The position numbers and the translations under genes are program-made. A model generated the notes under the pieces. The model did no database searches, was not told the origin of the DNA, and saw nothing but the letters and a program-made list of their open reading frames with translations. Positions 4,537-62,463 of a DNA stretch of 62,878 nucleotides are shown here, in pieces (position 1 is the stretch's first letter; each line of letters opens with the position of its first letter). Source of the stretch: a virus; IMG/VR virus record IMGVR_UViG_3300033064_001021, positions 1 through 62,878 of that record. One strand, written 5' to 3'.

Positions 4537-4572
4537 TTCGATTTGATGGACATCCCGATGAAAGGAGTCGCC

Positions 4573-13328: not shown

Positions 13329-13334
13329 CTCGGC

Positions 13335-13361
13335 GATTTCACCTCCCGATCCGAGTAATAG
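13335..13361 (+). promoter_or_regulatory. Candidate promoter element
   Basis: GATTTCACCTC, then GAGTAATAGACC, in the 55-base gap before the gene at 13384. It matches the GATTTCCCTAT/TATAGGAC class only partially. Confidence 0.25.
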
Positions 13362-13383
13362 ACCTGTGGAGAAGTGTACGACC

Positions 13384-14067: not shown

Positions 14068-16463
14068 CCTTCTTCTCAGGCCGAGTGCATACGGTCATCT
14101 ACGAGGATGCCCCCCAGGTGTTCTACATCCTCCGGATGACTCTCGATGCTCCCCCGGACGGGGACAACCCGTTCGGGTTCGACAATCTCCAGTTCGACAA
14201 GCCCGTGTCGTGCCGGGGGCACGTCCCCGGTCTGTCCGTCAAGATCGGCACCTGGTTCGGCTTCGAGGGTGAGTGGACGACGCACCCCAAGTACGGGCGG
14301 CAGATCAAGATCAAGAAGGCCCCGGTCATCAAGGGCGAGTGGACCTCCGAGATCGCTGTCAAGATGCTGACCGGCCACGGTGTGGGACAGCTCCTCGCTA
14401 CCCGGCTCCACCAGGAGTTTGGGGACGACCTGATCGAGGCCCTGAAGAACCCGAAGAATCTGATGAAGGTGCCGGGTGTGACTCGCTTCTCGGCGGATCA
14501 CGTCGTGTCCCGGTGGACCGTCATCGTGGCTCACCACAAGGTGCTGGACTTCCTCAGTGACTTGAAGCTCCCTGAGCACAAAATCAGCCAGATCTGGTCC
14601 GAGTTCGGGGACGAGACCGAGAAGACCCTCTCGACCAATCCGTGGGCCTTGGTCCGTATCCCTGGTCTCTCCTTCCCCAAGCTCGACGAGATCGCTCGCC
14701 GGGTAGGGCTCCCGATGGATGACCCTCATCGGGTCCAGGGAGCGGTGCTCTATGCCAGCAAGAACCAGCGGGACATGGGGCACCTGTACCAGGTCTCGGG
14801 AGCGTTCGTGGCCGGGGTACAGAACTACATCCCTGACGTGGAGAAGAAGCTCGTCGCCGAGGCTCTCAAGACCTTGAACAGCGAGGGCAAGCTGACCATC
14901 GACCGGACGACGAAGCCTGGGCTCACGGCCATCTACGATCCGTGGTCCTACGTCGCCGAGAGCGAGAGTGCCGCTGGGTTGGCCGCTCGGGTCCAGGAAG
15001 CAGCCTTCCACACGGGGGATGACCTCCGAGATTACATCGAGAAGCTCTCCACCGTCGGGACCAAGACGACAGCCCTGGTGAAGCGACGGATCAAGAAGCT
15101 GGACCCCGAGAAAGAGAAGGGCTGGGACAAGCTCCTCCGGGCCGTGGCGAAGAAGGCCATCGAGGAGTGGGGAGACCTCACGAACCTCCAGCTCGCCAAG
15201 GACCAGTTCAAGGGGGTCTTGAACGCCCTGACGAACCCTGTGAGCATCATCACCGGTCTGCCTGGGACGGGGAAGACCACCTCGTTGAAGGTGCTGGTGC
15301 GGGTGCTCCAGATGACCGGCGTGGAGTTCCTGCTGGCAGCTCCTACCGGCATTGCCGCCAAGCGCCTGGAAGGGGTGACGGGGGCCAAAGCCTCGACCCT
15401 GCACCGGGCCTTCGCCGCCAAGGGCATCTCGGATGAGAGCCGGGAAGCCACCTACGCCGGAGTCGTGGGGAAGTCCAAGAAGCAGGGCGGGTCAGATCGC
15501 TCCCAGGAGGAGTGGGGCTACAGTGCCTCGAACCCTCACCCAGCACGGTTCGTCGTCGTGGACGAGGCTTCGATGGTGGACCAGGCTCTCCTCTACCGCC
15601 TGCTCCAATGCACTTCCTCGGACTGCCGCCTGGTGTTCGTGGGGGATGCCGCCCAGCTCCCGAGTGTTGGGGCTGGGAATGTCCTGCGAGACCTGGTGAA
15701 TTCTGACCTGTTCCCCACCGTGACCCTGACGGAGATCTTCCGCCAGGACGACACGAGCGACATCATCTACGCCGCCCACGAGATCCATGCTGGGCGGACG
15801 CCCAAGGCTGAGAAGGGGTCTGACTTCACCTTGCTGGAGCTGAACGACGAGGAACTGGTGCTGGAGGCTATCCTGAAGCTGGCCCAGCGGCTCTATGCCA
15901 AGCGGAGTAACTTCCAGATCATCTCTCCCAGGCACGCCGGGACCGTGGGTGTGACGAACCTGAACACGCGGTTGAGGGAGCTGCTCAACCCCAAGATGCC
16001 AGGGGTCACGGAGCATCGCCTGGGTGGAGGTGTCGTTCGGGAAGGCGACCGAGTGATGGTGGTGAAGAACCACTACAAGCTGGGGGTCTTCAACGGGGAC
16101 GTGGGGAAGGTCGAGCGGATCGACCGCAAGGCATCGCACATCGAGGTCAAGATCCACGGACCGACCCCGATGCTGGTCCGCGTCCCCTTCAAGGAGGCAC
16201 CCAAACTGATCCGGATGGCCTACGCCTGCACGGTCCACAAGGCCCAGGGCCAGGAGTACGACCACATCGTGATGCCCCTGGTGCCCTCGTTTGCCCACCA
16301 GCTTCAGCGGAACCTGCTCTACACCGGGATTACCCGAGCCAGGATGAAAGTCATCCTGCTGGGGAGTAGTGTTTCGCTGGCCAAGGCCGTCGCCAATAGC
16401 AGGGAGGACTCCCGCCACACCTTGTTTGTGGAACGGCTCCAGCGAGAATTTGAGGACAACTAA
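14064..16463 (+). CDS. recD2: RecD2-like superfamily 1B DNA helicase
   Basis: 799 residues. The order is an N-terminal OB-like region, helix-hairpin-helix repeats (around MKVPGVTRFS and VRIPGLSFPK), and an SF1 motor with Walker A GLPGTGKTT (~residue 398), Walker B VVVDEASMVD, motif III GDAAQLPSVG, motif V YACTVHKAQG and motif VI LLYTGITRAR. This is the RecD2 arrangement (5'-3' helicase without RecBC). It probably acts in phage recombination or replication-fork processing with RecA, RuvC and SbcCD nearby. Confidence 0.9.
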   Translation: MTFFSGRVHTVIYEDAPQVFYILRMTLDAPPDGDNPFGFDNLQFDKPVSCRGHVPGLSVKIGTWFGFEGEWTTHPKYGRQIKIKKAPVIKGEWTSEIAVKMLTGHGVGQLLATRLHQEFGDDLIEALKNPKNLMKVPGVTRFSADHVVSRWTVIVAHHKVLDFLSDLKLPEHKISQIWSEFGDETEKTLSTNPWALVRIPGLSFPKLDEIARRVGLPMDDPHRVQGAVLYASKNQRDMGHLYQVSGAFVAGVQNYIPDVEKKLVAEALKTLNSEGKLTIDRTTKPGLTAIYDPWSYVAESESAAGLAARVQEAAFHTGDDLRDYIEKLSTVGTKTTALVKRRIKKLDPEKEKGWDKLLRAVAKKAIEEWGDLTNLQLAKDQFKGVLNALTNPVSIITGLPGTGKTTSLKVLVRVLQMTGVEFLLAAPTGIAAKRLEGVTGAKASTLHRAFAAKGISDESREATYAGVVGKSKKQGGSDRSQEEWGYSASNPHPARFVVVDEASMVDQALLYRLLQCTSSDCRLVFVGDAAQLPSVGAGNVLRDLVNSDLFPTVTLTEIFRQDDTSDIIYAAHEIHAGRTPKAEKGSDFTLLELNDEELVLEAILKLAQRLYAKRSNFQIISPRHAGTVGVTNLNTRLRELLNPKMPGVTEHRLGGGVVREGDRVMVVKNHYKLGVFNGDVGKVERIDRKASHIEVKIHGPTPMLVRVPFKEAPKLIRMAYACTVHKAQGQEYDHIVMPLVPSFAHQLQRNLLYTGITRARMKVILLGSSVSLAKAVANSREDSRHTLFVERLQREFEDN

Positions 16464-16502
16464 CGGTCCCAGACGGGTATAGCACCTAACGAGGTGTATC
16501 CG

Positions 16503-16823
16503 ATGCCCGACCCCTCAGAGGTTGTTACCCAGATCCAGCGTTCGATGGGGGTCACTCGGATCGTCGCCCGGCGGACGATCAAGAGCCCGACAGAGAACAC
16601 GACCGAAGAGATTGAAATTGCGTTCGATGGGGACGACGTTCACCCCAGAGGGGTGAACATCGCTGCCCATCTCGTGGGACTTCGGGTCGAGCTGTTGGCC
16701 CTCCGGCACGCTCTAGCCAACGGCAGCATCCCTCAGACCTACTTCCACGACCAGGAAGCCTCTCTCAAGGCTCAATACGCCCACCTGATCGATCAGGAGT
16801 TCACCGATGCCGAGAGTCCCTAA
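16503..16823 (+). CDS. Hypothetical protein
   Basis: 106 residues. ATG 16503 follows GAGGTG (16491-16496) by 6 bases; the GTG at 16494 lies within that site. The first half is beta-like and basic, the second a helical hairpin. No family recognised. A TATAGCAC element at 16478 lies upstream and matches other candidate promoter cores. Its 3' end overlaps the next gene by 17 bases. Confidence 0.65.
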   Translation: MPDPSEVVTQIQRSMGVTRIVARRTIKSPTENTTEEIEIAFDGDDVHPRGVNIAAHLVGLRVELLALRHALANGSIPQTYFHDQEASLKAQYAHLIDQEFTDAESP

Positions 16824-18066
16824 GCCTGTTACCCAGGACACCGTGGACATCATCTATGGGAGCCTGGGCAAGCTCGAAGTCCAGCTCGATGCCGACCCTC
16901 TGGCATTCGGACCCAAGCGGCTGAACGGCAAGATCGCCCTGTGCCGGAAGATGCTCTCCGAAACCGAGGGAATTTTCCTCCAGGTGTCCCAAGACCTGGG
17001 CTGGTATCGGTCGGAGCATCGGAAGCTGGAGGCTGCCTACAGCCTCACCGAGGCCGACATGATGGCCAACGATCCGATGACGCGGGCTGGGCACAGCATC
17101 GCCGACCGGAAGGCCCTGGTGAAGGACCAGCTCTCCACTGAATGCCAGAAGATCGACGACCTGGACCAGCAGGCCAAGATGTTTGAAGCCGTCATGGTCG
17201 TGGTCAAGGCCAAGCGGGCGGACCTCAAGGATGTTCAGGGTCGTCTACGGGACCAGATCAAGCTCTGCCAGGAGGAGATCGGTCTGGGCTCCCACTGGGG
17301 CTCCAAGCCCGGTGAGCCCTCCGGTTTCGAGCTGGAGCCTGGTCAGGGACGAGCGGCTGCTTCCGACGGGGAGGAGATCGACGACATCGTGGGTGGCATC
17401 GAGGGGGAAATCCATTTGTCCCGTGAGAAGGGGGAATGGCAGGACCCGCCCGAGTTCGACCCTGATGAAGGCTCTGGGAAGGACGAGGAGGGGGGCGAGG
17501 AAGACGAGGGCAACGACGACGAGGAAGAAGAGGAGAGCCAGGACGAGGATTCGGAAGAGTCCGAGGAGTCCGAGGCGTCGGAGCCTGTCGTCGAAGAAGT
17601 TGTCGAGCCCGAGGTCACTCCGGAACCCGAGCCGGAACCCGAACTGACGAGCTGCCCGAAGGTCGGCTACTGCTCCGAGTGTGGAGAGCCCCAGTACAAG
17701 ACATCGAGTGGCCTCGTCTGCGAGAACGGTCACGGAGGAGCCCCCACCCTCGATGAGCCTCCTGCACCTGAGCCCGAGCCGGAACCCGAGGTCTCTCCGG
17801 AGCCTGACCCTGAGCCCGAGGAAGGCACCGTCGAATCTGCCCCGTCGGAGGACGCCGAGGATGAGGATGAGGAAGAGGAGGAGCAGGAAGAGACCCCTCT
17901 GGAGGTGCCGGAGATCGACGACATCCTGCAGCCTACGGCCACGGAAGAGGACGTGGATTCGTTCCTCGACGGCTTCAATCCAGAGGACTCCGAGGCCAAG
18001 CCCGACCCCAAGAAGAAGGCCCTTGAGCCGGACGAGATCATCGACATCGACGATCTGTTGTCCTGA
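16807..18066 (+). CDS. Coiled-coil protein with acidic low-complexity region and zinc ribbon
   Basis: 419 residues. Residues 1-160 are helical and look like a structured coiled-coil domain. From ~190 the protein becomes Glu/Asp/Pro rich. A four-cysteine zinc ribbon (CPKVGYCSECG, later CENGHG) is embedded near residue 280, and more acidic PEPEPEP repeats follow. The end (EIIDIDDLLS) resembles a short acidic interaction tail. Context (helicase upstream, putative SSB downstream) suggests a recombination or replication mediator. That is inference; I recognise no named family. Confidence 0.6.
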   Translation: MPRVPKPVTQDTVDIIYGSLGKLEVQLDADPLAFGPKRLNGKIALCRKMLSETEGIFLQVSQDLGWYRSEHRKLEAAYSLTEADMMANDPMTRAGHSIADRKALVKDQLSTECQKIDDLDQQAKMFEAVMVVVKAKRADLKDVQGRLRDQIKLCQEEIGLGSHWGSKPGEPSGFELEPGQGRAAASDGEEIDDIVGGIEGEIHLSREKGEWQDPPEFDPDEGSGKDEEGGEEDEGNDDEEEEESQDEDSEESEESEASEPVVEEVVEPEVTPEPEPEPELTSCPKVGYCSECGEPQYKTSSGLVCENGHGGAPTLDEPPAPEPEPEPEVSPEPDPEPEEGTVESAPSEDAEDEDEEEEEQEETPLEVPEIDDILQPTATEEDVDSFLDGFNPEDSEAKPDPKKKALEPDEIIDIDDLLS

Positions 18067-18100
18067 GCAAAAAAGGGGGGTAGTTTGGGCCTCGATCTGA

Positions 18101-18110
18101 GTATAGGACA
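18101..18110 (+). promoter_or_regulatory. Candidate -10-like element before the SSB gene
   Basis: GTATAGGACA in the 107-base gap (18067-18173) before the gene at 18174; similar cores occur at 16478 (TATAGCAC), 25942 minus and 44128. The rest of the gap shows only an A6/G6 run. Confidence 0.3.
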
Positions 18111-18173
18111 GTGAGGCAAAACGTCATGGACGGAAAGATCCCCTGACCCAGCCTTAGAAACAAGGAGAGAGAT

Positions 18174-18893
18174 ATGAGTGGCAACGACGGATTCATGGAG
18201 TTCGGCTTCGGGCAGACCACGGGGCTCCCCCAGCGGAACAGGCGATTCAAGGGCAAGGACAACGAGACCTATCGGATGTCCTTCGCCTGGTGGCCCGGTC
18301 TGGAGACCAGCACTCTGGACATGGACGCCGAGACCCCGACGTTCGTGGGTTGCACCAGGAACTACATCCCTGGTGTGGGCTACATCATGAACAAGGGACC
18401 GGAGTACACGAAGATCGCGGGCGGTCCGCCCAAGACTTCCATCTCCACGATCATCGTGGTCTGGCCCACGGACTCCAAGGGCCAGCTCGACAAGGCGGCG
18501 TTCCAGGAGGGTCGCTTCGAGGTCATGCCTTGGGTCTTCGACCAGGGCAAGTACGAGCACATGGAGACCATCCATGGCAACTTCCACCTCGGGAAGCACG
18601 ACCTGGTGGCGAAGTGTACGGACAGCCAGTACCAGAAGATGCAGTTCTCCCCGGCTCCCGAGAACGTCCTCCGCAAGCTGCGGGACTCCGGCGACAAGGG
18701 CAAGGACCGCTTCGATGCTCTGATGGGCCAGATCCAGAACATCGCCGCCAACATCCGGAATGACCTGGCCAGGGACATGTCCCTCGACCAGATTCGGGAG
18801 AAGATGGGGAACGGTGGCGGAGTTGCCGCCCCCGTCGCCTCGGCCACCACCGAAGAGGTGGACGAGATGCTCGACAACATCCTCGACGGCTGA
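18174..18893 (+). CDS. Putative single-stranded DNA-binding protein
   Basis: 239 residues. The body has an OB-like pattern with conserved aromatic and basic residues (RMSFAWWPG, FVGCTRNYIPGVGYI, IHGNFHLGKHDLVAKC). It ends in a short acidic tail, EEVDEMLDNILDG, like the protein-interaction tails of SSBs. It sits between a recombination helicase and RuvC/RecA and is followed by a strong hairpin, consistent with high separate expression. The SSB call is inferred from the tail and context rather than from a recognised family signature. Confidence 0.5.
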   Translation: MSGNDGFMEFGFGQTTGLPQRNRRFKGKDNETYRMSFAWWPGLETSTLDMDAETPTFVGCTRNYIPGVGYIMNKGPEYTKIAGGPPKTSISTIIVVWPTDSKGQLDKAAFQEGRFEVMPWVFDQGKYEHMETIHGNFHLGKHDLVAKCTDSQYQKMQFSPAPENVLRKLRDSGDKGKDRFDALMGQIQNIAANIRNDLARDMSLDQIREKMGNGGGVAAPVASATTEEVDEMLDNILDG

Positions 18894-18907
18894 CCCGTCG
18901 ATCCCCG

Positions 18908-18948
18908 CCCACTGGGCCGCTACCTGACCCCCCGAGCGGCCCGGTGGG
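18908..18948 (+). terminator. Long hairpin after the putative SSB gene
   Basis: CCCACTGGGCCGCT (18908-18921) pairs with AGCGGCCCGGTGGG (18935-18948), a 14-bp stem with one G.U pair and a 13-base loop. It is followed by TTCCTCC and then TTTC. Strong but with an imperfect U-tract, it is a terminator or a processing/attenuation structure before ruvC. Confidence 0.55.
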
Positions 18949-18978
18949 TTCCTCCTCCCCTTTCAGGAGGGACGGGTC

Positions 18979-19632
18979 ATGCGAATTCTTGGATTCGATC
19001 CGTCTCTCACCAATTTCGGTTGGGCACTCTACGACACCGAAGCTACAGGTGCCGCCCGGTGTACCGCCCGAGGTCGATTCCAGACCCCCGCTAAGATGCT
19101 GTTCATCACCCGCTACATGTTCATGCGGGAGGCCGTTCGGGATCTGATCCAGGAGCACAAGCCCGACCGTTTCGGGCTCGAATCCCCCATCTTCAACGAC
19201 CTGTGGAGTGAGGGGATGTACGGCCTGTTCCTCTACACCTGTGAGGCGCTCTACCTGGAGAAGGTGGACATGGTGTTGTTCGCCCCACCCCAGGTGAAGG
19301 CCCACGCCCGGTTGTTCCTCAAGCGGCCCACGAAGCCCATGTGGAAAATGAACAAACCGGACATGGTGGAGGCGGCTCGGGATCACACGGGGGGTAAGGG
19401 AAGATGGAACCACAACGAGGCTGACGCCTACTGGGTCGCCGTGGTCGCAGGACGCTTCTGGCAGTTCTACGACGGCACGCTGGCCGAGCACGAGCTGACG
19501 CCCATCGAACGAAAGCAGTTCAACGACGTACACACCTACGTGCGGGGCAAGAAGGAAGGCAAGACGGAGCATCGGGGCATCGTGTTCCGAGAGGATGATC
19601 GCTTCTTCTTGTGGTCCGCCGTGAAGGATTAG
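18979..19632 (+). CDS. ruvC: RuvC-like Holliday junction resolvase
   Basis: 217 residues. The RNase H-fold acidic residues are in place: Asp7 in ILGFDPS, Glu68 in GLESP and Asp149 in HNEADAYW. RuvC cuts four-way junctions; in phages this resolves branched replicating DNA before packaging. The ATG follows AGGAGGG with 7-base spacing. It is slightly longer than cellular RuvC (~170) through a C-terminal extension. The next gene, recA-like, starts 3 bases after its stop. Confidence 0.85.
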   Translation: MRILGFDPSLTNFGWALYDTEATGAARCTARGRFQTPAKMLFITRYMFMREAVRDLIQEHKPDRFGLESPIFNDLWSEGMYGLFLYTCEALYLEKVDMVLFAPPQVKAHARLFLKRPTKPMWKMNKPDMVEAARDHTGGKGRWNHNEADAYWVAVVAGRFWQFYDGTLAEHELTPIERKQFNDVHTYVRGKKEGKTEHRGIVFREDDRFFLWSAVKD

Positions 19633-19635
19633 ACG

Positions 19636-20973
19636 ATGGCAACGAAGAAGGATGGGGCGAAGGCGAAGGCGAAGACGACGACCAAGAAGAAGACGGCCAA
19701 GAAAAAGACGAAGAAGACGAAGGCAGCTCGGGGGTTTGGCCAAGGTCTGGCCATGGTCAACAAGGCTCTGAAGGGCAAGTCGGATGCGGTGGTGGAGATC
19801 GACTCCAACGCTCGCACGAAGTCGATGCCCCATCTCCCCACCAGCTCGGCCATCATCGACTACCTGATCGGTGGACGGCCCAACGCCTTCGGTGTCCCTC
19901 CGTGCCCTGGTCTGCCCCGAGGCAAGATCGTCAACCTGTACGGCCATGAAGGCTGTGGGAAGACCACCCTGGCCCTCCAGATGTGTGCCGAGGTCTGCCG
20001 GAACGGTGGCCGAGCCGTCTACGTGGACTGGGAGAACGAGGTCGCTCTCGACTACGCTGCTGCCCTGGGTGTCCCCATCGAGGATAAGGACCACTTCCTG
20101 TTGCTCCAGCCGGATACGCTGGAAGAGGGCATGAAGTACATCCTGGTGTTCGTCGCCGACGGTGTGGAGCTGCTGGTCATCGACTCCGTGGGAGCTGCTG
20201 TCCCCCAGGCCATCTTCGAGCAGAAGATCGAAGACGTGGGGGATCTGGGTCGTCTGGGTCTCATGGCTGCCAAGTGGTCCAGCTTCTTGCCCAAGGTCAA
20301 GCGCATGTGTGCCCGGTCTGGGTCAACCATCCTGGGCATCTCCCAGCTCCGTGCGAAGATCAACACCGGAGGTCACGGTGGGAAGACCACCACCGAGCAG
20401 GGAGGCTTTGCTTGGCGTTTCTACTCCGCCCTGCGGATCTCCCTGGCCCGTGTTGCCCAGGAGAAGGGCAAGGTCTACGACGCCATCACCAACGCCATGA
20501 TCGACCAGACGGTGGGTGCGAAGATCAAGATCACCCTCGACAAGTGCAAGGTCGGTCTGTCCCAGGGCCAGTTCGCCACCTTCTACCTCCAGCACGGCAG
20601 GGGCATCGACGACTTGAGGAGCGTCCTGGAGGTCGCCACCAAGCGGAAGATCGTCGTCAAGGGCGGGGCCTGGTACACCTGGAACCGCAAGGACGGAACC
20701 GAGGTTCGTGGTCAGGGCATCGAGGCGTTCAAGCGGAAGATCCGTGAGATCGATGGAGCCGAGCAAGAGCTGTACGACCTGGTGCTCCCGGTGATGATGA
20801 CCTACGACCCACTCGCTGTCGTCGAGGTCGAGGAGGAGGAGAGTGACCTGGCCGAGGGCCTGAGTGACCTGGACATCGAGGAGGTCATGAACGAGGTCGG
20901 GGAGGCGGGCGAGGAACACGAGCCCACCGAGGAGGAGAAGGAAGCACAAGAAGAAGCCGACAACGCGGGGTAG
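19636..20973 (+). CDS. recA: RecA-like recombinase with lysine-rich N-terminal tail
   Basis: 445 residues. Walker A GHEGCGKTT at 103-111, a Walker B-like ELLVIDSV near 177, and a RecA-type loop region (GGHGGKTTTEQGG) are present. Residues 5-31 are an unusual lysine/threonine tail and the last ~50 residues are very acidic; neither is typical of bacterial RecA (~350 residues). It would catalyse strand exchange in phage recombination and replication restart, with the SSB and SbcC neighbours. The basic tail may increase DNA binding. Confidence 0.85.
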   Translation: MATKKDGAKAKAKTTTKKKTAKKKTKKTKAARGFGQGLAMVNKALKGKSDAVVEIDSNARTKSMPHLPTSSAIIDYLIGGRPNAFGVPPCPGLPRGKIVNLYGHEGCGKTTLALQMCAEVCRNGGRAVYVDWENEVALDYAAALGVPIEDKDHFLLLQPDTLEEGMKYILVFVADGVELLVIDSVGAAVPQAIFEQKIEDVGDLGRLGLMAAKWSSFLPKVKRMCARSGSTILGISQLRAKINTGGHGGKTTTEQGGFAWRFYSALRISLARVAQEKGKVYDAITNAMIDQTVGAKIKITLDKCKVGLSQGQFATFYLQHGRGIDDLRSVLEVATKRKIVVKGGAWYTWNRKDGTEVRGQGIEAFKRKIREIDGAEQELYDLVLPVMMTYDPLAVVEVEEEESDLAEGLSDLDIEEVMNEVGEAGEEHEPTEEEKEAQEEADNAG

Positions 20974-52062: not shown

Positions 52063-52326
52063 ATGTCACGCTATAGCCGGAAGAAGAGGTACGTCCTCGG
52101 GTCGGAAGACCAGGCCGTATTCGATCACCTGGAACGGGCTCGGCGAGAGCTGCAATCCGCCGAGTCGAGGTGCCTCCAGGTGTTGGAGAACCGTGAAGCA
52201 TCGGTCATGCGTGCTCAACAGACCCTCCGAGATCTTCGCGGTACGATGTCTATCCTGGATCGGGTTCGTACCCTGTCCTCCCCCTACGGGCCAAGCCCAG
52301 GAGTAACGGATGGCGAAGAGGAATAA
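52063..52326 (+). CDS. Small helical protein
   Basis: 87 residues, a basic start followed by one long helix with heptad-like pattern (FDHLERARRELQSAESRCLQ) and an acidic end. It overlaps the portal gene by 17 bases. Function unknown. Confidence 0.6.
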   Translation: MSRYSRKKRYVLGSEDQAVFDHLERARRELQSAESRCLQVLENREASVMRAQQTLRDLRGTMSILDRVRTLSSPYGPSPGVTDGEEE

Positions 52327-54007
52327 GCCCGAGGATACCCGTGTGGTCCGCAAGGTGCCCCCGCGTCAGAAGGTGACGGTGGGGAAGCCTCAGAAGATCA
52401 TCACGGGCTCAATGAAGCTCGGCTACCCGACCGTGGGTGGCACGGTCTGGGGAGCGGGTCAGAACGTCTACTCCCCCGAGTTGAGCACCGACTTCCTCGA
52501 ACTGCCTCAGAGCATCGACGAGCAGCGAAACTACTACCGCTTCTTCTACGATAATGACCCCTTCGTGGGCCAGGCTATCGACCTCCTGGTGGAGCTGCCT
52601 CTCTCCAAGGTCCGTTTCGGGATGCCCGAGACCATGTACCCGGAGAACCGCCCCCTTGCCGAGGCGGCGTACCAGTGGGTCGAGCGGTGGGGCGACCGGA
52701 TGCAGCTCCTCCGGCGGCTCATGGCTATCGTCTTCGACTACCACCTGATCGGTGAGGTCTGGATCTTCCTGGAGGACAACTCTCCGGAGGAGCCTGCTGA
52801 TGTCCGCTACGAGAAGCGGAAGGTCGTCACTGACGAGGGAGAGGCCATCGAGGAGTGGATCGAGAGGGCCGACGCCAACGAGCGGGCGGTCAACTGGGTC
52901 AACAGGAACTACAAGGGCTGGACCGCCCTGAGAGTGCTCCCTCCTGAGCAGGTCCACATGGAGTCCTTCTCGTTCACGGATGCCAAGATCATCGAGCTGA
53001 TCGTGGACGCCAAGACCAAGGACATCATCCAGAAGGCGGCGAACGGCGAACAGGATGCCATCCGTATCGTCGAGACCATGCCCGAGGAGATCCTCAAGTA
53101 CGTCCAAAAGGGCGAGAACCTCCCGCTGAACCAAGACCCCGAGGCGGGCAGCTTCGTCCACTACATGCCCCGGACCAAGAGCGACTACGAGCCCCGAGGG
53201 CACTCGATTCTTCAGCGGTGTATTCGCATCCTCGTCCACCGGGACAAGCTCCGTCAGGCGAACGCCTCCATCGCCTCCCGCCACATGACCCCCATCCGGT
53301 TGGTCTGGGCAGAGGACATGGACATTGCCGACACCGAGGAGCTGCGTGAACAGGTGGACATGGCCCTGGTCGATCCCGACTACTCCATCGTCACCAACTT
53401 CGAGGTCCACTGGGAGGAGATGGGCAGCGACCAGCGGCTCCTCGACCTCTCCGGCGAGTACGACATCACCGACCGCCAGCTCTATGCGGGCCTGAGCATG
53501 ACCGAGAGCCTCCTGTCCGGTGAGGGTTCCTACAGTGGGGACCGCATCAACCTGGAGGTGATCAACACCAGGTTCATGCTCCTTCGAGAGCTTCTCCAGG
53601 ACTTCATCGACAACAACGTAGTGGCCCCGATGATGAAGCGTCTGGGCTTCGTCGAGATCGACAAGAAGACCGGCGAAGTCCTCCCCATCGTGCCACCTCT
53701 GAGCTTCACCAGGCTCTCGCTGCGGGACAACAGCGAGGTCTTCGACGCCATGTTCCAGATGTACCAGAAGGGCAGTCTGGACGTGGACGTGATCCTGGAG
53801 CTGCTGAACATCGACCCGGTGAAGACCCGGAAGAAGCTCCAGAGAGACCTCTGGACCCTCAATGACCCGCAGTACAACGAGCTGACCCGAGGCGTGTACA
53901 GCGAAGCTGGACGTGCCCTGGTAGAGAACTCCGACGTGATCGACATCATCGCCAAGAAGCTGGGTCTCAAGTACGCGAAGAAGGATGAGGGTGGTGACCG
54001 CTTCTAG
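52310..54007 (+). CDS. Portal protein
   Basis: 565 residues. The body has the portal pattern: early FYDNDPFVGQAIDLLVELP, a beta-rich wing and a long helical stem (LEVINTRFMLLRELLQDFIDNN). Size, composition and position downstream of terL support the call. Portals form the dodecameric DNA entry ring. The last ~40 residues are basic. A candidate promoter follows before the next gene. Confidence 0.88.
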   Translation: MAKRNKPEDTRVVRKVPPRQKVTVGKPQKIITGSMKLGYPTVGGTVWGAGQNVYSPELSTDFLELPQSIDEQRNYYRFFYDNDPFVGQAIDLLVELPLSKVRFGMPETMYPENRPLAEAAYQWVERWGDRMQLLRRLMAIVFDYHLIGEVWIFLEDNSPEEPADVRYEKRKVVTDEGEAIEEWIERADANERAVNWVNRNYKGWTALRVLPPEQVHMESFSFTDAKIIELIVDAKTKDIIQKAANGEQDAIRIVETMPEEILKYVQKGENLPLNQDPEAGSFVHYMPRTKSDYEPRGHSILQRCIRILVHRDKLRQANASIASRHMTPIRLVWAEDMDIADTEELREQVDMALVDPDYSIVTNFEVHWEEMGSDQRLLDLSGEYDITDRQLYAGLSMTESLLSGEGSYSGDRINLEVINTRFMLLRELLQDFIDNNVVAPMMKRLGFVEIDKKTGEVLPIVPPLSFTRLSLRDNSEVFDAMFQMYQKGSLDVDVILELLNIDPVKTRKKLQRDLWTLNDPQYNELTRGVYSEAGRALVENSDVIDIIAKKLGLKYAKKDEGGDRF

Positions 54008-54043: not shown

Positions 54044-55852
54044 ATGATCACAGCTCTAACCCATCGAGTCGCCACCCGCTCTGTCCAAGGGGAGGCTCAC
54101 CGAAGGTCCATCGCCCTGATGAAGTTCCTATCAGGGTTGGCGAACCGCCTTCGTGTAGGAAAGCACGTCTACGTCGTAGGCGGAGCTGTCCGCAACTTCG
54201 TCATCGAGCAGCCCATCAAGGACATCGACGTGATGATCGATGCCCTCGGGGCCGGTCATGATTCCGAGTGGTTCGCCAAGCAGGTAGCGAAGGCCATTCC
54301 CACCAAGACGAGCCTCACCACCAACCAATACGGCGTGGCGATCTTGACCGTGGCGGGGGACTGGGAGCTGGACGAGGAACTGATGAAGGGCGAGGTGATC
54401 GAGATCGCCAATGCCCGTAAGGAGAGCTACGGCGGGGAGGCTGGGAAAGGCTACAAGCCCAGCGATGTCGAGTTCGCCACGGTGGAGGAGGACATCCTCC
54501 GTCGGGAATTCACCTTCAACACGTTGCTCTGGAGGCTCTCTGACCTGGCTTCTGGACCCGAGAAGGCTGAGATCATCGACCTGACCGGGTGCGGGATGAA
54601 GGACTTGGAGGAGGGATTCCTCCGGTGTCCCTCGGACCCGGACAAGACCTTCACGGACGACCCGACCCGGATGCTCCGGGCCATCAAGTTCGTCGCCAAG
54701 TACGGCTTCAAGATCCCACCTGACGTGGCTGCTTCTATCAAGAAGAACGCGAAGAAGATGAAGCAGGCCCCTTGGGAGGCCATCGGCACCCTCTTCGTCG
54801 AGAACGTGCTCAAGGAGGCCACAGCTTCCGAGGCCCTGAAGCTGATGAAGAAGCTCGGGCTCCTCGATGTGGTGGCCGACATGGTGCAGGAGAACAAGCG
54901 GTTCTCTTCGTACCTGGTGCATCACCTGAAGAAGAACCCCAAGGTAGGTCTCCTGTTCGAGATGATGGACCTGGGCCTCCCCGTCGGGGCTGCCATCGGG
55001 TTCCTCGACCGCAAGCAGCAGGACCGCCTTCGGGAGATCACCGCTCCGTGGCCGGACGACAAGGCCGCCGAGTTCCTGGCGTTCCTGAAGAAGCCCATCA
55101 TCGACAACGAGGCCATCATTGAGCGGTTCGACCTGCAAGGCCGTGAGCGGGGCAGCATACGTCCTGTGACCCAAGAGGTACTGCTGGAGACCCCCGAGCT
55201 GGCCTGGAACAAGCGCAAGCTCCAGCAGGCCGTGGAGAAAGCCATGACACGACAGAAGCGTGGGAGTGCGGAAGATGGTTTCAAGACAGGCGACCGTACT
55301 GGCGTTGGCCTGTTCATCCCTCTTCCCCCTGGTCTGGCACAGCAGTTTCCGGCTCTGGGGGATGACGACAAATCTCCACCTCACGTTACGTTCCTGTACA
55401 TCGGGGAAGTCCCCGAGGAGCGGGAGGAGGATTTCCTCCAGGTCATCCAGGACTCCCTGAACAGCAACCACGCTCCTGTCCAGGGTCCGATCCGGGGCGA
55501 GTTCCAGGCCCTCGACTACTTCGAGCACCCCACGGAGGAGGGCGTGGACCGTGTAGCCATCGCCCCTGTCCGGTTCAACGAGGGGATGGAGGAGTTGCGG
55601 TGGTATCTCCGTGACCAGCTCATCTCCAACGGCTTCGACGTGGATGATAGTTTCCCGCTGGTCTACAACCCCCACACGACTCTGGCCTACATGCGGGGTC
55701 AGGATGCCCAGTACACCGACGAGGTGCCCACCGGCTCCTGGGACTTCGACAGTATCGAGGTGTGGGGACTCCCCGAGGTCTACGAGGCCAACATTGGGCG
55801 GACCATTGCCTACCGAGTCGCTTCCCGATGGATGGAGAACCAGACATCGTGA
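54044..55852 (+). CDS. tRNA nucleotidyltransferase/poly(A) polymerase-like protein fused to a 2H phosphoesterase
   Basis: 602 residues. The N-terminal class II nucleotidyltransferase is clear: VYVVGGAVRNF, DIDVMID (Asp60, Asp62), RREFTFNTLLWRL and DDPTRMLRAIKFVAKYGF, the head and neck of CCA-adding enzymes. The C-terminal part (from ~425) is a 2H phosphoesterase with PPHVTFLYIG (His447, Thr449) and NPHTTLAYM (His544, Thr546), as in LigT/RNA-ligase-like and anti-CBASS Acb1 enzymes. Both protein ends carry THRVATRS and YRVASRW motifs. Plausible role: repair of cleaved tRNAs, or cleavage of cyclic nucleotides. The last 4 bases overlap the giant ORF. Confidence 0.82.
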   Translation: MITALTHRVATRSVQGEAHRRSIALMKFLSGLANRLRVGKHVYVVGGAVRNFVIEQPIKDIDVMIDALGAGHDSEWFAKQVAKAIPTKTSLTTNQYGVAILTVAGDWELDEELMKGEVIEIANARKESYGGEAGKGYKPSDVEFATVEEDILRREFTFNTLLWRLSDLASGPEKAEIIDLTGCGMKDLEEGFLRCPSDPDKTFTDDPTRMLRAIKFVAKYGFKIPPDVAASIKKNAKKMKQAPWEAIGTLFVENVLKEATASEALKLMKKLGLLDVVADMVQENKRFSSYLVHHLKKNPKVGLLFEMMDLGLPVGAAIGFLDRKQQDRLREITAPWPDDKAAEFLAFLKKPIIDNEAIIERFDLQGRERGSIRPVTQEVLLETPELAWNKRKLQQAVEKAMTRQKRGSAEDGFKTGDRTGVGLFIPLPPGLAQQFPALGDDDKSPPHVTFLYIGEVPEEREEDFLQVIQDSLNSNHAPVQGPIRGEFQALDYFEHPTEEGVDRVAIAPVRFNEGMEELRWYLRDQLISNGFDVDDSFPLVYNPHTTLAYMRGQDAQYTDEVPTGSWDFDSIEVWGLPEVYEANIGRTIAYRVASRWMENQTS

Positions 55853-58800
55853 GTCGGATCATCCCCATCGCGGTCAGGGTCGCTCAACGCCACCAGGCCA
55901 AGAACTTCAAACTTAATGTTGGAGATCCGATCTTGTACGGTAAGTACAAGAATAAAAAGGGACTTATCAAGGGGTTCAAGACCGGTCCGAAGGGTGATCC
56001 CATCGTGATCGTCGAGCAGGTTCCCAACGACTCGGGGCGGAAGCAGGACAAGGAGCTGAAGCTGTTCAAGATCCGCTACGACAAGGAGCGGGCCAGGTCG
56101 ATGAAGAAGAAGGCTGCCATCTTCGAGGCTCCTCCTGGCTTGATCAAGGCGTTCCTCGCCTGGGCTATCCCCAAGTACGCTTCCAATGCCCTGGTCCATG
56201 TGGAACGGCGATACCAGAGCATGGTGAACCGGGCTGCTCTGATCGAGGCCGCCCTCGCCGAGATCGAGAAGCTCAAGAGGACGTGGAAGCGTCAGGTCGA
56301 GGCCCTGGATGTGGGCGAGAAGGTCTTGTGGACGGTCCCGTGGCTCCTCAATGACGGCACCGTGGGCACCTATGCGGTTGGAATCCTGCGTGGGGAGGAA
56401 GGCTACTTCTTCGACCACTCCCCCAAGCGGGTCATGTTCCGCAGGCGGGGATACCCCTCCCCGCTGGAGAATCTCGACTACCAGATGCTCCGCATTTTGG
56501 AGCGGTCCGAAACACAGTTGGGCATCCGGCTGCGAGAAGTCCAGCGAAGTGAAGGCACCGACGATGCCACGTTGGTGGAGACAGGACGCCTGCTCAAGGA
56601 ACTGAAGAAGTACACGAGCAAGGCCAAAGCGTACCGGACTTCCGCCTCGGTCAAGATCCCCATCACGGCGGCGAGCCTCCAAGGGTGGAAGTACCTCTCG
56701 GCGATGCCTTCCAAGCCGGAGATCGAGGATCTCCTGAAGGCGGAGGGGTGGGACAAGTTCAAGGGTGTCTTCTACTTCAACCCACACTCGACTCGGGGTG
56801 GTGTTTGGAATGTGGGGAAGAAGGAACTCCAGATCGATGTGCCGGTGCTGGAGGGCCATCTCGTCCCCGAGACACTGGGTGAGTTCCAAGAGGGTCTCCA
56901 GAAGATTGCGGGTGCAACCCGACATGAGTTCCAGCATGTCGGCCAATCGCTGTTTCAGACCCTTACGGGGGCCGAGGAACTTCGGGGTCTACCACCAGGT
57001 GAGATGCGAGACCCGACGAAGACGCCTCTGGGTCTGCCGAAGAAGGACTTGGCCTTCAGCTTCCGTGACCCCCATGCCGTACAGGACGTGGAGTTCTACA
57101 CGGACCTGGCGGACGAGATCGATGCCTTCGTCAAGGCGGCCCGTCGTATCCCCGAGGACCAACTACGGGATTTCTTCGGCGTCTGGACAGAGACTCGCAG
57201 AGGAAACCTGTCGGATTTCGGGGTTCGCTACCGGGAATACTTCAGCACCCTCAAGATCTACAACAAGGCCAAGTGGAAGAAGGCTATCGCCGAGTTCCTC
57301 AAGGGCATCAACGCCCGAGGCATCTACATCCCCAAGACCGGCAAGCGGGCGTTCGACGGCTACGCCTACCACACGGGTCAGACCGTGATGGTCGGACCTT
57401 CTGATGGGAAGTTCGAGCCCGCCACCGTGGTGGGGAACCCGGCGGATCGGCAGTCCCGTGACGAGCATGTGATGGTGGCCTTCGAGGATGGCTCCGTGGA
57501 GGAGCTGGACCCGGATAACCTCCAGGCGGAGGACGAGTGGGTGCGGAACCATTCAGAGAACGAGTTCGGCAAGATCGCGGTTCGAGTGGCCGCCCGATAC
57601 GACTGGGACAACTCCTCTATCGGCGACTGGGAGTACCTCGTTCAGGGGGAGAAGGACGAGGGCCTCGCCAAGGTTCAGGAGTGGGGACTCGATGGAGCCC
57701 AGTACAAGGTGAAGGAGTGCGGGGACGGCCCCCAGGTTGTCCTGGTGGGAGGGGAGATCTCTGACCTCGACTGGATGGTGAGCCAGCACAACGAGGATCT
57801 GTTCTACCGGCATCCCAAGGATTCGGAGGGGGAGTGGCGGCCTCTCTACCAGCACTACAAATCGGCTCTGGCCCACCGCATCGCGGCCAAGTACCAGAAG
57901 AAGAAGAAGATCAAGACCCAGGATGGGGACGAAGCGACGGTCTACGAGTACAGCGACCGCCAGGTGTCCCATCGCAACCGGGAGAAGGCCAAGAAGGTCG
58001 AGAAGCTCCGCCAGGGCATGGACAAGCTCGAATCCCAGGTCCGCAAGGATCTGACGGCCAAGGACGAGAAGACCAGGCTGACCGCTCTGGGTGTGGCCTT
58101 GATCAACCGGACCTTCGAGCGGGTGGGGAACCCCGAGTCTGCGAAGGAAGGGCACTTTGGGGTCACGGTATGGCAGGCCAAGCACGTCAAGTTCGAGGGT
58201 GGAAACGCCGTCATGCGGTACGTGGGCAAGAGCGGCGTCAAGCACAAGAAGATCCTCAAGGACAAGACCGTGGTCAAGGCCCTGAAGGCGGCGATGAAGG
58301 GCAAGAAGGGGACGGATGCCGTCTTCTCCCTGGGAGACCAGGAGGAGAAGTCGGTCATCGCTGCCTCGGACGTGAACGACTACCTCAAGCAGTTCTCGAT
58401 CACCGCCAAGGACATCCGTGGGCTGCGGGCGAACCAGGAGATGCAGGACCGGCTGAAGGCCATCCGTAAGGAGGGGCCGAAGATGCCGGACGACAAGAAG
58501 GAGCGGGAGAAGCTCCTCAAGGACGAGTTTGACCGGGCGCTGGAGGGGGCTGCCGAAGCAGTTGGGCATGAGGCAGCTACCCTCCGCACCCAGTACCTCG
58601 TCCCCGGCCTGGAGGACGACTACCTCAAGGACGGCAAGGTGCAGGAGACCCTGAACAAGAAGGGCTCCCTGGACCGCATCGCCATCATCCACATCGACAA
58701 CGCCACGGACGGCGATGGTTCCCTACGAGGTCTCCCTGGCTTGATCTCCAGCCTGACCCTCTACGAGCAGGCCATCATCCAGGACATGCTGATCCACGAC

Positions 58801-61293
58801 GCCGAACTCAAGAAGGAGATGTCGGGGGATTGGACGATCCGAGGGCACAAGGTCGAGCCCGACGCCGTGACCGAGCTGATGGGTGCGGGCTACCTGGAGG
58901 ATACGGCGGGCGTCGTATCCCTGTCTTCTATGTTCCAGACCAAGATGCGGCTCTACACGGCGTCCTCGCAAGGAGACATCTTCGAGGGCCTCCAAGTCGC
59001 CTTCGAGGCTCTGATGCAGCCCATCAAAGATGTGGTAGAGGGTCGAACACCACCGCTGGAGATCGTCAACGCCACCGGCACTGTCCCCAAGCGGGCCAAG
59101 ACGGCGGCCTATGACATCCAGGGTCACTGTCCCCTCTGTCAGTGCATCCTCCATGACGGCCCTCGCTACCACAACCACTGTGACGACTGCGGGTACGACG
59201 TGGCGTTCCAGAAGGGTGAGGAGAGGTTCCCTGGCAAGGACTGGACGCCGATCCCGGAAGAGGACCCTCGCTACGTCAAGTACCTGGCAGAGCAAGCGGC
59301 ACAGCTCGCGTACATCAACCGCATGTTCCAGGGACCAGGCAAGGTGGCGACTCGTACTCCGGCGGAGAAGGAAGACGACGACATCGAAGACCTCCGCAAG
59401 AAGAACCCCAAGCTCAAGCCTCCCCGGTACGACCTGCGGAAGCGTCGGGTGGACGTGGAAGATGACGACCTCGACCAGGGAGCTGAAGCAGACCGTGACC
59501 TCACCAAGAACTACAAGCGGATCGCCCAACGATGGCTTGCTGGGGATGGGGATGTCTCCAACCAGCGGATCGCCTTCCGGTTCCTCCTGAGCGAGAACCC
59601 GAAGGCCCCTACCTCGGCGAAGGACTTGATCGTAGTCCGGAACAAGGAGACCGGTAAGCCCGTCCGGGTGACGCCGGAGAACTTCCAGGACAACAGCAAC
59701 CTGTACGAGGAGATCAAGGAGGGCGAACCCGAGGAGGGTGAACCCGAGGACTCTCCAGAGGGAGCGGCACCGGAGGGTGAGAAGAAGGAGAAGCCTTCCC
59801 CCGAGGACGAAGAGGCGGCAGCCGAGAAGAAGAAGGATGAGGAGAAGGACGAGGAGAAGGCCAAGAAGAAGGAGATCTCCGAGGCCAAGGAGCAAGTCAC
59901 CGAGCTGATGGACATCGGCATCTCCGAGGCTCCCAAGGTCTTCAAGAACGTGAACAAGGCCCTGAAGACTCTCGACCCCAAGGACACGGAGAAGCTGGCT
60001 TTGTTCACCAGGGATGCTTCCAGAGATGCCATCGGGGATATGGCTGGGGAGGCTAACTTCAGCGATGAGGTGGTTCAAGAGGCCCAGGACTCCCTGACCA
60101 AGCCCTTCGATGCTAAAGCCCTGGAGGTCAAGGACCCCGAGGTTCGTGCGAAGGCCATCCAGGACTTGGCCAAGCGCCTGGTCCAGGTTCAGATCGCCCA
60201 GAAGGTGATCTTGAACCCCAAGTGGGGCGGTGGTTCGAAGATCACCAACCAGAAGGAGACCAAGAGTTCCCTCCGTGAACGTGCGAACGCCTCCTTCGAC
60301 CAGTACAGCAAGCTGGACGACAGCGGGCTCAACGACGTGGCGGAGCGACTCGACAGGGACATCGAGAAGGTAGCTGCGGACCCGAAACGGAAGAACGAGC
60401 ACGAGCAGCTCAAGGCGGTCAAGCGGGGGCTGAACCTGGCTCGGATCACGAAGGGTCAGGAAATCGAGGGCCGCTATGGTGAGCCCGCTCCCAAGGAGCT
60501 GACGGCCCTGGCGGGATACCTCCATGAGAAGAAGGACGCGGACCCCAAGACCCTACTCCCGGTGATGGATGACTGGGGAGACCCGGACAACACCCGAGTC
60601 ATCGAGGAAGCCCTGAGAGAGCTTCCCTCGAAGGATCTCCGGGACATGGCCGGTGGGGATGACGGTGTGTACGCCGAGACCCTGGCGGTAGTGGATAGCC
60701 CCAACATCGACCCAGAAGTGCGAGAAATGCTGCTGTCGGAGGCCCGGCGTGGCATCTCCCGGCAGATGGGGGCTGAAGGTCAAGCGTTGGCCGAGATGGA
60801 AGCTGCCAAGGTCGGAGAGAAGTGGGAGGGGATGTCCCCAGAGGAACGGGGACAGACAATCCTGGAGAGCAAGCGGAAGCTGGGGCAAATCAAATCGACC
60901 TACGCTCGTAAGGTGGCCAGGGCTGCCCGGAAGAACGATGAGGCGAAGGTCCGGAAGCTCCAGGCCGAGGCAGCCGAAGCCGAGGTAGGAGCGATGGCGG
61001 AGATGGCTTTCGAGAGGATGGGAGAAGTCCCCGAGTCTCTTCGCAAGCTCCTTTCGCAACTTGTTTCCGAAGGAGTCATGACGACGGACCGAATGACCGA
61101 AATTCTCCAGGCTGCCAAGGGCAAATCTTCAAAAAAGGCGTCCTACGGGGGGCCTTTAAGCAAAAAAAATCAATCATCTGTCTATAAAACACACGAATCA
61201 GGTGGAGGGCTGTACTGCGCTTCGCCAACGTGTGGTGATAGCAAACCGGGAGCCGTAAGTGGGTTCCCTGATCTCAACAGGAGGCATGAACCC
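55849..61293 (+). CDS. Giant polyprotein-like virion protein (zincin motif, topoisomerase IB)
   Basis: About 1,815 residues from GTG 55849 to the point where the next gene begins; the frame has no stop of its own and runs on to 62463. Modules: N-terminal KOW-like region; zincin TRHEFQH (His359-His363); RVAARY (579) and RIAAKY (677); a type IB topoisomerase (~700-935) with Arg758, Lys854, Arg857, His907 and Tyr916 (nine residues apart, as in vaccinia enzyme); a zinc cluster CPLCQCILH...CDDCG; RIAQRW (1224) and RIAFRF (1240); acidic linkers and helical tail. Packaged topoisomerase/protease is likely. Confidence 0.8.
57877..58632 (+). other. Type IB topoisomerase domain inside the giant protein
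   Basis: The domain follows the RIAAKY motif. Catalytic residues are positioned as in poxvirus/bacterial TopIB: RVGN (Arg758), GKSG (Lys region), KDIRGLR (Lys854/Arg857), VGHEAATLRTQYL with His907 and Tyr916. It would relax supercoils through a 3'-phosphotyrosine. Such a domain in a likely virion protein suggests release of torsion in DNA during packaging or ejection. Confidence 0.78.
61131..61137 (+). promoter_or_regulatory. Candidate -1 frameshift site (A AAA AAG)
   Basis: TCA AAA AAG in the zero frame contains the dnaX-type heptamer A AAA AAG, with AAAGGC/GCCTTT hairpin arms at 61134-61157 and a weak Shine-Dalgarno (AAGGG) ~10 bases before. A -1 shift would end at TAA 61185-61187; no shift continues into the next gene. 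Confidence 0.4.
61183..61190 (+). promoter_or_regulatory. Candidate -10-like element before the gene at 61294
   Basis: TATAAAAC-type core (in TCTATAAAAC) within an AT-rich stretch that interrupts the high-GC ORF. It resembles the TATAGGAC/TATAAGAAC elements found at other gene starts. Confidence 0.35.
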
Positions 61294-62463
61294 ATGAGCA
61301 AGCTGACCAAGCGTGGCGCACTACAGGTCACGGATACCCTGGACCGTATGGCCACCCTGTTCCAGCAGGACTTCGAGATTCTCGGCGTAGACCGAGAGGC
61401 CGCAACGGACTTCTACAAGCGATGCGAGATGCTGGGAGACCACATCGAGCGTCATGCGGGCATCGACCCGTTGAAGAAGGCCACGATGCACTTCCCGCCG
61501 GACGACATCGGCAGGGAGGAAGCCGGTCCTCTGGTGGACGAGCCCGACGAGCCCTTCATGAAGGGCGAGTTCGACCAGCAGGAGTTCCGTGAGCTGTCCG
61601 ACCGCCAGGAGGCCGGGGACCTCGGGATGACTCCTGTGGAAGACCCCCGTGCCCCGCAGCCCGGACGCCAGCTCGCCGCCGAGATGGACGCGGTGCTCGC
61701 GGACATCGAGAAGGTCGCTGCCGTCGGCATCATGTCCGACAAGGAGGCCGAGGACTACGTTCGTCAGCTCACCGACCTGGAGCGCCAGGTTGCCGAGCAG
61801 GCCGCCGAGATCGAGGCCATCGCTGGCGAGCTGATGAAGAAGAAGGACGACCTGAAGAAGGAACAGGTGACCATGGCCAAGGAGTTCGGGAAGAAGCTCC
61901 CCGAGAGCCTCAAGGGCCAGGGCAAGGCCATCTTCGACCTCCGCAACGTCCTGATCTCCTACACCAAGGTCGCCTCGGTCAAGGGACCGAAGATGGCTAT
62001 CTTCGAGAACGAGTCGCTGGTCCGCATCGGTGAGCAGTTCTCCGAGGAGGTCCGGGAGGCCGTCGCCGACATCTTCGAGGCCGTCAAGAAGGAGAACAGC
62101 AAGCCCATCGCCGCCGCCCTGAAGTCCCTCAAGTACGAGGTGAAGAACGCCAATCTGAAGATGGCGTCGGACAAGGAAGCAGGCATCATGGACCTGCTCA
62201 CCACCGTCACCAGCTTCTTCTCCCGCCTCTACAAGGGCATGGTCTCCCTGTTCGGTCTCGCCTCCAAGACCATCAGCCGTCGCCGCGACAAGGTGCTGAA
62301 GTCCTGGGGCTCCTTCCAGAAGGAGTTCGACAAGGCCGAGCGCGAGATGGCGAAGGCCGCTGCCGACGAGAACCAGGACGAGGAGGCCGACGAGGACGAC
62401 GACAAGGAAGGCTGCGACAAGAAGGCGACCTTCGACCACGGGTTCAACCTGACGGCGGAGTAG
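61294..62463 (+). CDS. Highly expressed virion or scaffold-type helical protein
   Basis: 389 residues. AGGAGG (61279-61284) precedes the ATG, and codon use is strongly biased to G/C in the third position, as for an abundant protein. It shares the frame of the giant protein upstream, so a fusion is formally possible. Helix-rich; two segments resemble each other loosely (KVAAVGIMSDKEAEDYV and MASDKEAGIMDLL). The C terminus is acidic. I think of a scaffold or internal head protein, but no signature confirms this. Confidence 0.7.
   Translation: MSKLTKRGALQVTDTLDRMATLFQQDFEILGVDREAATDFYKRCEMLGDHIERHAGIDPLKKATMHFPPDDIGREEAGPLVDEPDEPFMKGEFDQQEFRELSDRQEAGDLGMTPVEDPRAPQPGRQLAAEMDAVLADIEKVAAVGIMSDKEAEDYVRQLTDLERQVAEQAAEIEAIAGELMKKKDDLKKEQVTMAKEFGKKLPESLKGQGKAIFDLRNVLISYTKVASVKGPKMAIFENESLVRIGEQFSEEVREAVADIFEAVKKENSKPIAAALKSLKYEVKNANLKMASDKEAGIMDLLTTVTSFFSRLYKGMVSLFGLASKTISRRRDKVLKSWGSFQKEFDKAEREMAKAAADENQDEEADEDDDKEGCDKKATFDHGFNLTAE

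Follow-up and report, generated by a model that had tools for sequence, protein, structure and literature searches.

A gene lying directly behind the portal gene in a fragment of a giant phage encodes a two-domain fusion of a class II tRNA-nucleotidyltransferase/poly(A)-polymerase module (NTase; approximately residues 40-405) and a 2H phosphoesterase (approximately residues 420-584). With confidence evenly balanced for and against, we propose that the protein is RNA 3'-end repair cargo that acts on tRNA, is encoded in the head-gene cluster, is probably delivered in the virion and belongs to a swappable set of enzymes. Recurrence of the NTase/2H pairing in relatives suggests a kit, perhaps carried in the virus particle, to repair host tRNAs that bacterial defences have damaged.

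Gene and domain organization

The window analyzed here is the whole 62,878-nucleotide stretch of IMG/VR virus record IMGVR_UViG_3300033064_001021, a virus fragment whose end falls inside the cluster formed by the portal gene and the slot behind it. The fusion gene is an open reading frame (54044-55852; ATG start, stop within these coordinates, 602 aa) that begins 36 bases past the stop of the portal gene (52310-54007), the product of which is a homologue of the Bacillus phage G portal protein (phrog_16240, E 4.4e-25). The next ORF of the slot (55849-62463) likely starts at a GTG that overlaps the fusion-gene stop (GTGA). It encodes the catalytic domain of a eukaryotic-type topoisomerase IB (Pfam Topoisom_I, E 1.6e-22) and carries several internal copies of the tag described below. 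All of these genes, and all features of the fusion protein given here, are on the plus strand.

Pfam placed a Pol-beta NTase head domain (PolyA_pol) at residues 42-194 of the fusion protein (54167-54625; E 3.8e-16, 60 bits versus a cut-off of 23) and a 2_5_RNA_ligase2 match at residues 442-573 (E 2.8e-6, 27.9 bits versus a cut-off of 27); a match to the RNA-binding neck (PolyA_pol_RNAbd, residues 221-277, E 0.0018) fell under the cut-off. The N-terminal part also matched a PHROG tRNA nucleotidyltransferase profile (E 3e-33). The neck and body of the NTase module (54626-55267, residues 195-408) are conserved across the phage family, and the 2H domain as a whole, from Pfam and the domain model, spans residues 420-584 (55301-55795). 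An AlphaFold2 model of the whole protein from a 42-row alignment had two domains (pLDDT 91.5, pTM 0.70). Relatives with solved structures comprise poly(A) polymerase and CCA-, CC- and A-adding enzymes.

Active-site motifs of both enzymes are intact. NTase motif A (GGAVRN...KDID, 54179-54229) provides G46, G47, D60 and D62, all invariant in relatives. Motif B (RREFTFN, 54500-54520) occupies residues 153-159, and the nucleotide-recognition motif DDPTR (54656-54670, residues 205-209) is the equivalent of EDxxR in class II enzymes, with D206, P207 and R209 invariant. Across an alignment of 14 NTases, the invariant positions were G46, G47, R50, K59, D60, D62, R125, R153, R154, T157, N159, D206, P207, R209 and R212. 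Both HxT motifs of the 2H domain, H447-V448-T449 (55382-55390) and H544-T545-T546 (55673-55681), were invariant in the 16 aligned 2H domains of relatives. Pfam, PHROG and these motifs thus confirm the original prediction of an NTase-2H fusion, and no loss of catalytic His/Thr or Asp residues was seen in the 16 2H domains and 14 NTases. Invariance in relatives indicates that the motifs are not chance matches.

Specificity signatures of the nucleotidyltransferase

All class II superfamily motifs (GG...DxD, RR[DE]FTxN and xDxxR) are present and invariant in the phage family, and PDB matches of the NTase part were to CCA-adding enzymes (6qy6, E 5.5e-13; T. maritima 5hc9, solved with tRNA, E 6e-13). 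The module had first been read as a CCA enzyme. The neck of CCA-adding enzymes contains ERxxxExxxhh and that of A-adding enzymes sRxxxExxxhh, and poly(A) polymerases are marked by a specific motif ahead of the flexible loop (PMC10673834). In a joint alignment, cellular controls displayed ER...E, (s/a)R...E or the poly(A) polymerase motif, as expected. ERxxxExxxhh was not found in the window protein in this alignment, the neck helix at that site reading PWEAIGTLFVENVL (54770-54811, residues 243-256). Necks of the phage family are divergent: almost all phage relatives have lost the R and E, and a single one, L009/L149, shows SRxxxE as in A-adding enzymes. The motif specific to poly(A) polymerases (GRRFxLxH in control L195) was absent from the window protein and all phage relatives in the alignment. 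The flexible loop, which lies between motifs A and B, is absent in CC-adding enzymes. At the matching position the phage proteins have a conserved stretch, ANARxESYGG...GYKP, that may correspond to this loop; residues 131-140 of the window protein dip to pLDDT 79.

NCBIfam CCA and PcnB profiles gave the window NTase similar scores, hundreds of bits under the equivalog cut-offs: 96.6 bits for the best equivalog, tRNA_CCA_actino (cut-off 438.8), and 96.9 bits for pcnB (cut-off 305.65). Because ERxxxExxxhh is lost in nearly the whole phage family and all NCBIfam equivalog cut-offs were missed, the label CCA enzyme is too specific. Judged by its motifs, the window NTase is a member of the class II tRNA nucleotidyltransferase/poly(A) polymerase superfamily, and family membership makes tRNA its likely substrate. 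An NTase tree separated the 63 sequences of the phage clade from four cellular ones (SH-aLRT 99). One contig (G012, the record of L047) has two complete NTase modules in tandem in a single 948-aa open frame (contig bases 258243-260594), which might divide C- and A-addition between them.

The portal-to-protease slot and its shared tag

Single-sequence scans with the whole window protein or its 2H domain found no relative; relatives were found via alignments built from portal-linked loci. Eighty IMG/VR loci have portals of about 60% identity, many of them in contigs of 200-620 kb. The nearest named phages by portal are Tunturiibacter phage Tunturi_5 (34%) and Bacillus phage G (25%). Virus Rctr197k ORF 172, considered as a portal, proved unrelated (19%), and the true Rctr197k portal homologue lies elsewhere. 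In the clade, a slot of 3.5 to approximately 10 kb or more extends from the portal gene to the head maturation protease gene (PHROG 18299) and holds variable, often very long ORFs. Bacillus phage G likewise has the homologous protease after the portal, ahead of the annotated major head protein, and the slot is therefore assigned to the head-gene cluster.

Slot proteins of the clade also carry Topo IB, ART-PolyVal, GNAT, PAP2 and DUF5661 domains in varying order. The Topo IB domain, at 57862-58671 in the window, occurs in most slots of the clade, usually downstream of other recognised modules; examples of other domains are the PAP2 phosphatase of L064 (12403-17667) and the ART-PolyVal of L003 (12000-15038). 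The window protein resembles phage-type polyvalent proteins in being a multidomain protein encoded among portal and head genes, at a portal-to-protease position in relatives.

A short tag, in full form approximately (S/A)xRVA(A/S)R(Y/W/F)L, recurs between modules and at the ends of slot proteins. The pattern [RK][VIL][AT]x[RK][WYF] had 128 copies in 137 slot ORFs versus 6.3 expected from shuffles (20-fold), with 0 copies in 87 portals and 0 in 31 proteases. Domain cores make up 33% of residues, yet 118 of the 128 copies lie outside them. NTases whose genes lie outside the slot, elsewhere in the genome, also carry the tag at one end, N-terminal in L095, L107 and L163 and C-terminal in L134 and L104. 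Positions in the window are 55814-55831, 57583, 57877, 59518, 59566 and 44799. Virion-type motifs had been proposed at both ends of the fusion protein. The motif class is real, and the C-terminal copy, RVASRW (55814-55831, residues 591-596; RVASRWM with residue 597), fits the tag; the N-terminal RVATRS (54065-54082, residues 8-13; HRVATRS with residue 7) is without the aromatic residue and matches weakly. Capsid targeting sequences of T4 and propeptides of giant phages are precedents for packaging and processing (PMC5694885), and by analogy the tag may be a packaging or processing (cleavage) signal. Virion delivery would fit both the head-cluster position and the shared tag. If the tag does direct packaging, one could tell from sequence which proteins a large clade of uncultured phages injects.

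Recurrent pairing of NTase, 2H and HAD modules

Of 58 non-redundant portal loci, 18 had an NTase and 17 a 2H domain according to profiles built from the window. The two shared a slot in 9 loci versus 5.3 expected, a modest excess (Fisher p 0.03, uncorrected for kinship). With further loci added by scans with the NTase and 2H alignments, a 2H module was present in the same or a neighbouring ORF for 22 of 63 non-redundant NTases, so that a search for the domain pair in other phages, called for at the outset, showed it to recur in both orders. The order is NTase-2H in the window, L064, L109, L076, L043, L019 and L144, and 2H-NTase in L071, L088, L091, L094, L099, L101, L105, L106 and others. Where the two modules share an ORF, most linkers measure 4-57 aa and the others 137-955 aa. 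On the tree of 63 NTases, the state of having a 2H neighbour required at least 9 changes; the pairing has therefore been gained or lost repeatedly, and a single gain was rejected.

A third module joins the same proteins. HAD_SAK_1, described as "HAD domain family 1 in Swiss Army Knife RNA repair proteins", matched with E values down to 1e-23 and the motif DFDGTLF. It takes the same slot in L006 and L007, accompanies 2H in L032, L058, L062 and L179 and NTase in L098 and L189, and lies between NTase and 2H in a single 919-aa ORF in L043/L131. Presence of this phosphatase strengthens the RNA-end repair theme of the original prediction. Pfam detected no HAD_SAK domain in the window protein.

We infer enzyme activities, tRNA substrate, nucleotide specificity, order of steps, packaging or delivery, and repair purpose in the following scheme. 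The fusion protein would be packaged and injected, or made alongside head proteins. Where metal-independent RNases have cut tRNA or other RNA, the 2H domain of the protein would open the resulting 2',3'-cyclic phosphates; in relatives, the HAD "Swiss-army-knife" phosphatase would supply the middle step, removal of the phosphate, and the NTase would then add the missing 3' nucleotides (C/A) without a template. Several points count against this repair scheme: LigT-type 2H enzymes leave a 2'-phosphate and the window protein has no phosphatase, the CCA-diagnostic ERxxxExxxhh is absent, the excess of shared slots is modest, and neither an RNA ligase association nor more than a trend with tRNA number was seen.

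One polypeptide is not proof of one pathway, because slot proteins also carry unrelated Topo IB, ART, GNAT and PAP2 domains. The protein could instead be a polyvalent protein in which NTase and 2H are co-delivered to different targets and fused for packaging only, an explanation we consider unlikely but worth weighing. It would suit the changing order in which slot proteins mix Topo IB, ART-PolyVal, GNAT, PAP2 and DUF5661, and a tag that sits between modules, outside their cores, suggests packaging or release of modules singly. However, each of NTase, 2H and HAD_SAK is found paired with each of the others, one ORF holds the full trio, and all are RNA 3'-end enzymes.

Fold of the 2H domain

The 2H domain shows the marks of its superfamily: two HxT motifs, a Pfam match over cut-off and a fold like those of Deinococcus radiodurans RNA CPDase (drCPDase) and LigT. 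Modeled alone with AlphaFold2 (pLDDT 93.5, pTM 0.86), it gave drCPDase (5h7e) as the best PDB match (E 2.5e-7), followed by E. coli LigT, viral 2-5A phosphodiesterases (4ye2, VP3), AKAP18 and Usb1, with T. thermophilus 1iuh also among the matches. The ThpR/LigT equivalog for RNA 2',3'-cyclic phosphodiesterases, TIGR02258, was not reached (19.7 bits, cut-off 65.7). Acb1 (7t27) was the 46th structural match (E 6.7e-3), and Pfam Acb1 had no match in the window protein and a sub-threshold match in L082 only. On the model, the 2H part is nearer RNA CPDases of the LigT/ThpR type than Acb1. A tandem arrangement was seen in L125, where two 2H domains in one ORF (3682-5094) are followed by an NTase ORF.

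These comparisons bear on whether the 2H domain destroys defence signals, such as the cyclic oligonucleotides of CBASS or type III CRISPR or 2'-5' oligoadenylate-like molecules, with the NTase as a separate effector. Iyer et al. 2017 proposed signal degradation as one option for polyvalent 2H domains (PMC5512222), viral 2-5A phosphodiesterases stand just behind the RNA CPDases among our matches, and Acb1 is a distant match. We nevertheless find this role rather improbable: the closest structures are RNA CPDases, Pfam Acb1 is unmatched, and the recurrent partners are RNA-end enzymes. The Acb1-like counter-defence entertained initially is accordingly less likely than RNA end processing.

tRNA genes and RNA ligases

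Many relatives have 30-70 tRNA genes, and 102 of 152 sampled tRNA genes of the clade (loci L268-L297) are without an encoded CCA, some ending in a partial C or CC. The missing CCA also counts in favour of the repair scheme. Given phages with as many as 70 tRNA genes, and CCA missing from two thirds of the 152, a rival to repair is that the NTase would mature the phage's own tRNAs by supplying their ends, and the 2H domain would be incidental or trim ends. Several observations make this a doubtful prospect. tRNA-free contigs of 257-297 kb (G016, G026) have an NTase, whereas a 485 kb contig with 33 tRNAs is without one, and the relation of NTase presence to tRNA number is a trend only, short of significance (p 0.11). 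A cargo slot among head genes would also be odd for a maturation enzyme, and hosts own a CCA enzyme. The window has no tRNA genes.

RNA ligases were considered as partners and rejected, as their presence across 28 larger contigs was not associated with that of 2H or NTase; the window has none. Without a ligase association, the modules fit end restoration better than re-joining of strands.

An attack on the host, in which the NTase would put wrong nucleotides on host tRNA or the 2H domain would cut host RNA in the manner of Usb1 and so halt translation on injection, is barely credible: the NTase differs from both the CCA- and the A-adding signature, making another product possible, toxin-antitoxin NTases that extend tRNA (MenT) exist (PMC10435456) and Iyer et al. 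considered a Usb1-like RNase for phage 2H (PMC5512222), but the phage needs translation, clade phages often have many tRNAs, and HAD_SAK partners point to repair.

Comparison with known systems

E. coli Cca joins an NTase to an HD domain with 2',3'-cyclic phosphodiesterase activity (Yakunin 2004, as cited in PMC10673834), and the likeness drawn earlier between the fusion protein and such CCA enzymes is upheld. Both have a class II NTase head and neck and a tRNA-end phosphoesterase on one chain, making the same job plausible. Unlike in Cca, the phosphoesterase of the window protein is 2H (HxT twice) rather than HD, the neck is without ERxxxExxxhh, the gene lies in a phage head cluster, and the phosphatase of relatives is a separate HAD module.

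Already known are portal-adjacent 2H polyvalent proteins (PMC5512222) and, from jumbo phages, enzymes of the CCA type and SAK-HAD (PMC7824862). The window protein shares with the former a multidomain, portal-adjacent arrangement, a 2H domain and presumed virion delivery. That survey reported Pol-beta NTases in conjugative elements only, and of minimal type only, and gave 2H an RNase or oligonucleotide-signal role (PMC5512222); in contrast, the window protein couples its 2H domain to a complete NTase of the tRNA type, and in relatives 2H is coupled to HAD_SAK as well. For jumbo phages, it was proposed that 2H clears 2',3'-cyclic ends, SAK-HAD removes the remaining phosphate and CCA-type NTases restore 3' nucleotides (PMC7824862). 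The repair set described there (CCA-adding enzyme, 2H, SAK-HAD and RNA ligases) includes the same three end-processing enzyme types as the clade. In that set, SAK-HAD tends to stand alone and the enzymes are interpreted as companions of RNA ligases, whereas those of the clade lie in one chain or next to one another within the head slot, and no ligase link was found. LigT/ThpR RNA 2',3'-cyclic phosphodiesterases (5h7e, 5ldm, 1iuh) have the closest fold and both HxT motifs, but identity to the window 2H domain is approximately 20% or less, and the domain scores far under the TIGR02258 cut-off. Acb1 anti-CBASS nuclease shares the 2H fold and differs in its low structural rank and the missing Pfam match. 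In the literature covered, with subscription journals largely outside it, we found no report of an NTase-2H(-HAD) fusion in a head-cluster slot, of the distinct NTase neck or of the tag.

The role of 2H in phage polyvalent proteins is an open question, with RNase, signal degrader and RNA-end processor as candidates (PMC5512222). That 2H is repeatedly found joined to an NTase of the tRNA type and to a repair phosphatase provides evidence from context for RNA-end processing and allows a test with one protein. Cas12a3 cuts the CCA tails off tRNA, and according to the authors a virus would have to rely on "yet unknown" means to resist it (PMC12851939). If it restores tRNA 3' ends, the NTase would be a candidate counter to tRNA-tail-cleaving immunity, for which the discoverers knew of no viral resistance mechanism (PMC12851939). 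A bolder version of the repair proposal, that huge phages inject a ready-made, tagged tRNA 3'-end kit (2H, HAD and NTase) that restores tails cut by host immunity such as Cas12a3, strikes us as possible though improbable.

Inteins and split genes

In NTases of the clade, an intein of approximately 457 aa (C...VVHN|T; Pfam Intein_splicing and LAGLIDADG_3) sits exactly after the final N of RREFTFN in motif B in L022 (ORF 11958-20378), L076/L077 (11771-20188) and L083/L084 (15762-18074), and NTase matches are split at the same place in L150 and L164. In L080 (4795-7692) the NTase reads RREFTFNCMAGDTLIPTGCG; the intein start remains and approximately 20 extein residues are gone, as would be expected of either a decayed intein or an assembly artefact.

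Elsewhere, an inserted ORF splits the NTase between head and body (L019, 18166-19161; L073, 12505-13267; also L140 and L144). In L019 and L073 this ORF is free-standing and endonuclease-like, ending in ECHGDYWHANP or ETHGDYWHGNP. Group I introns were rejected as an explanation of these two gaps, which had no Rfam match and hold the endonuclease-like ORF. The head/body splits resemble genes-in-pieces made by homing endonucleases. In L082 (about 13859-13937) the same place is interrupted by approximately 80 bases only. Portal matches are also split, by approximately 430-530 aa, in L088/L090, L106/L165, L109, L140 and L168, probably by an intein in the portal protein.
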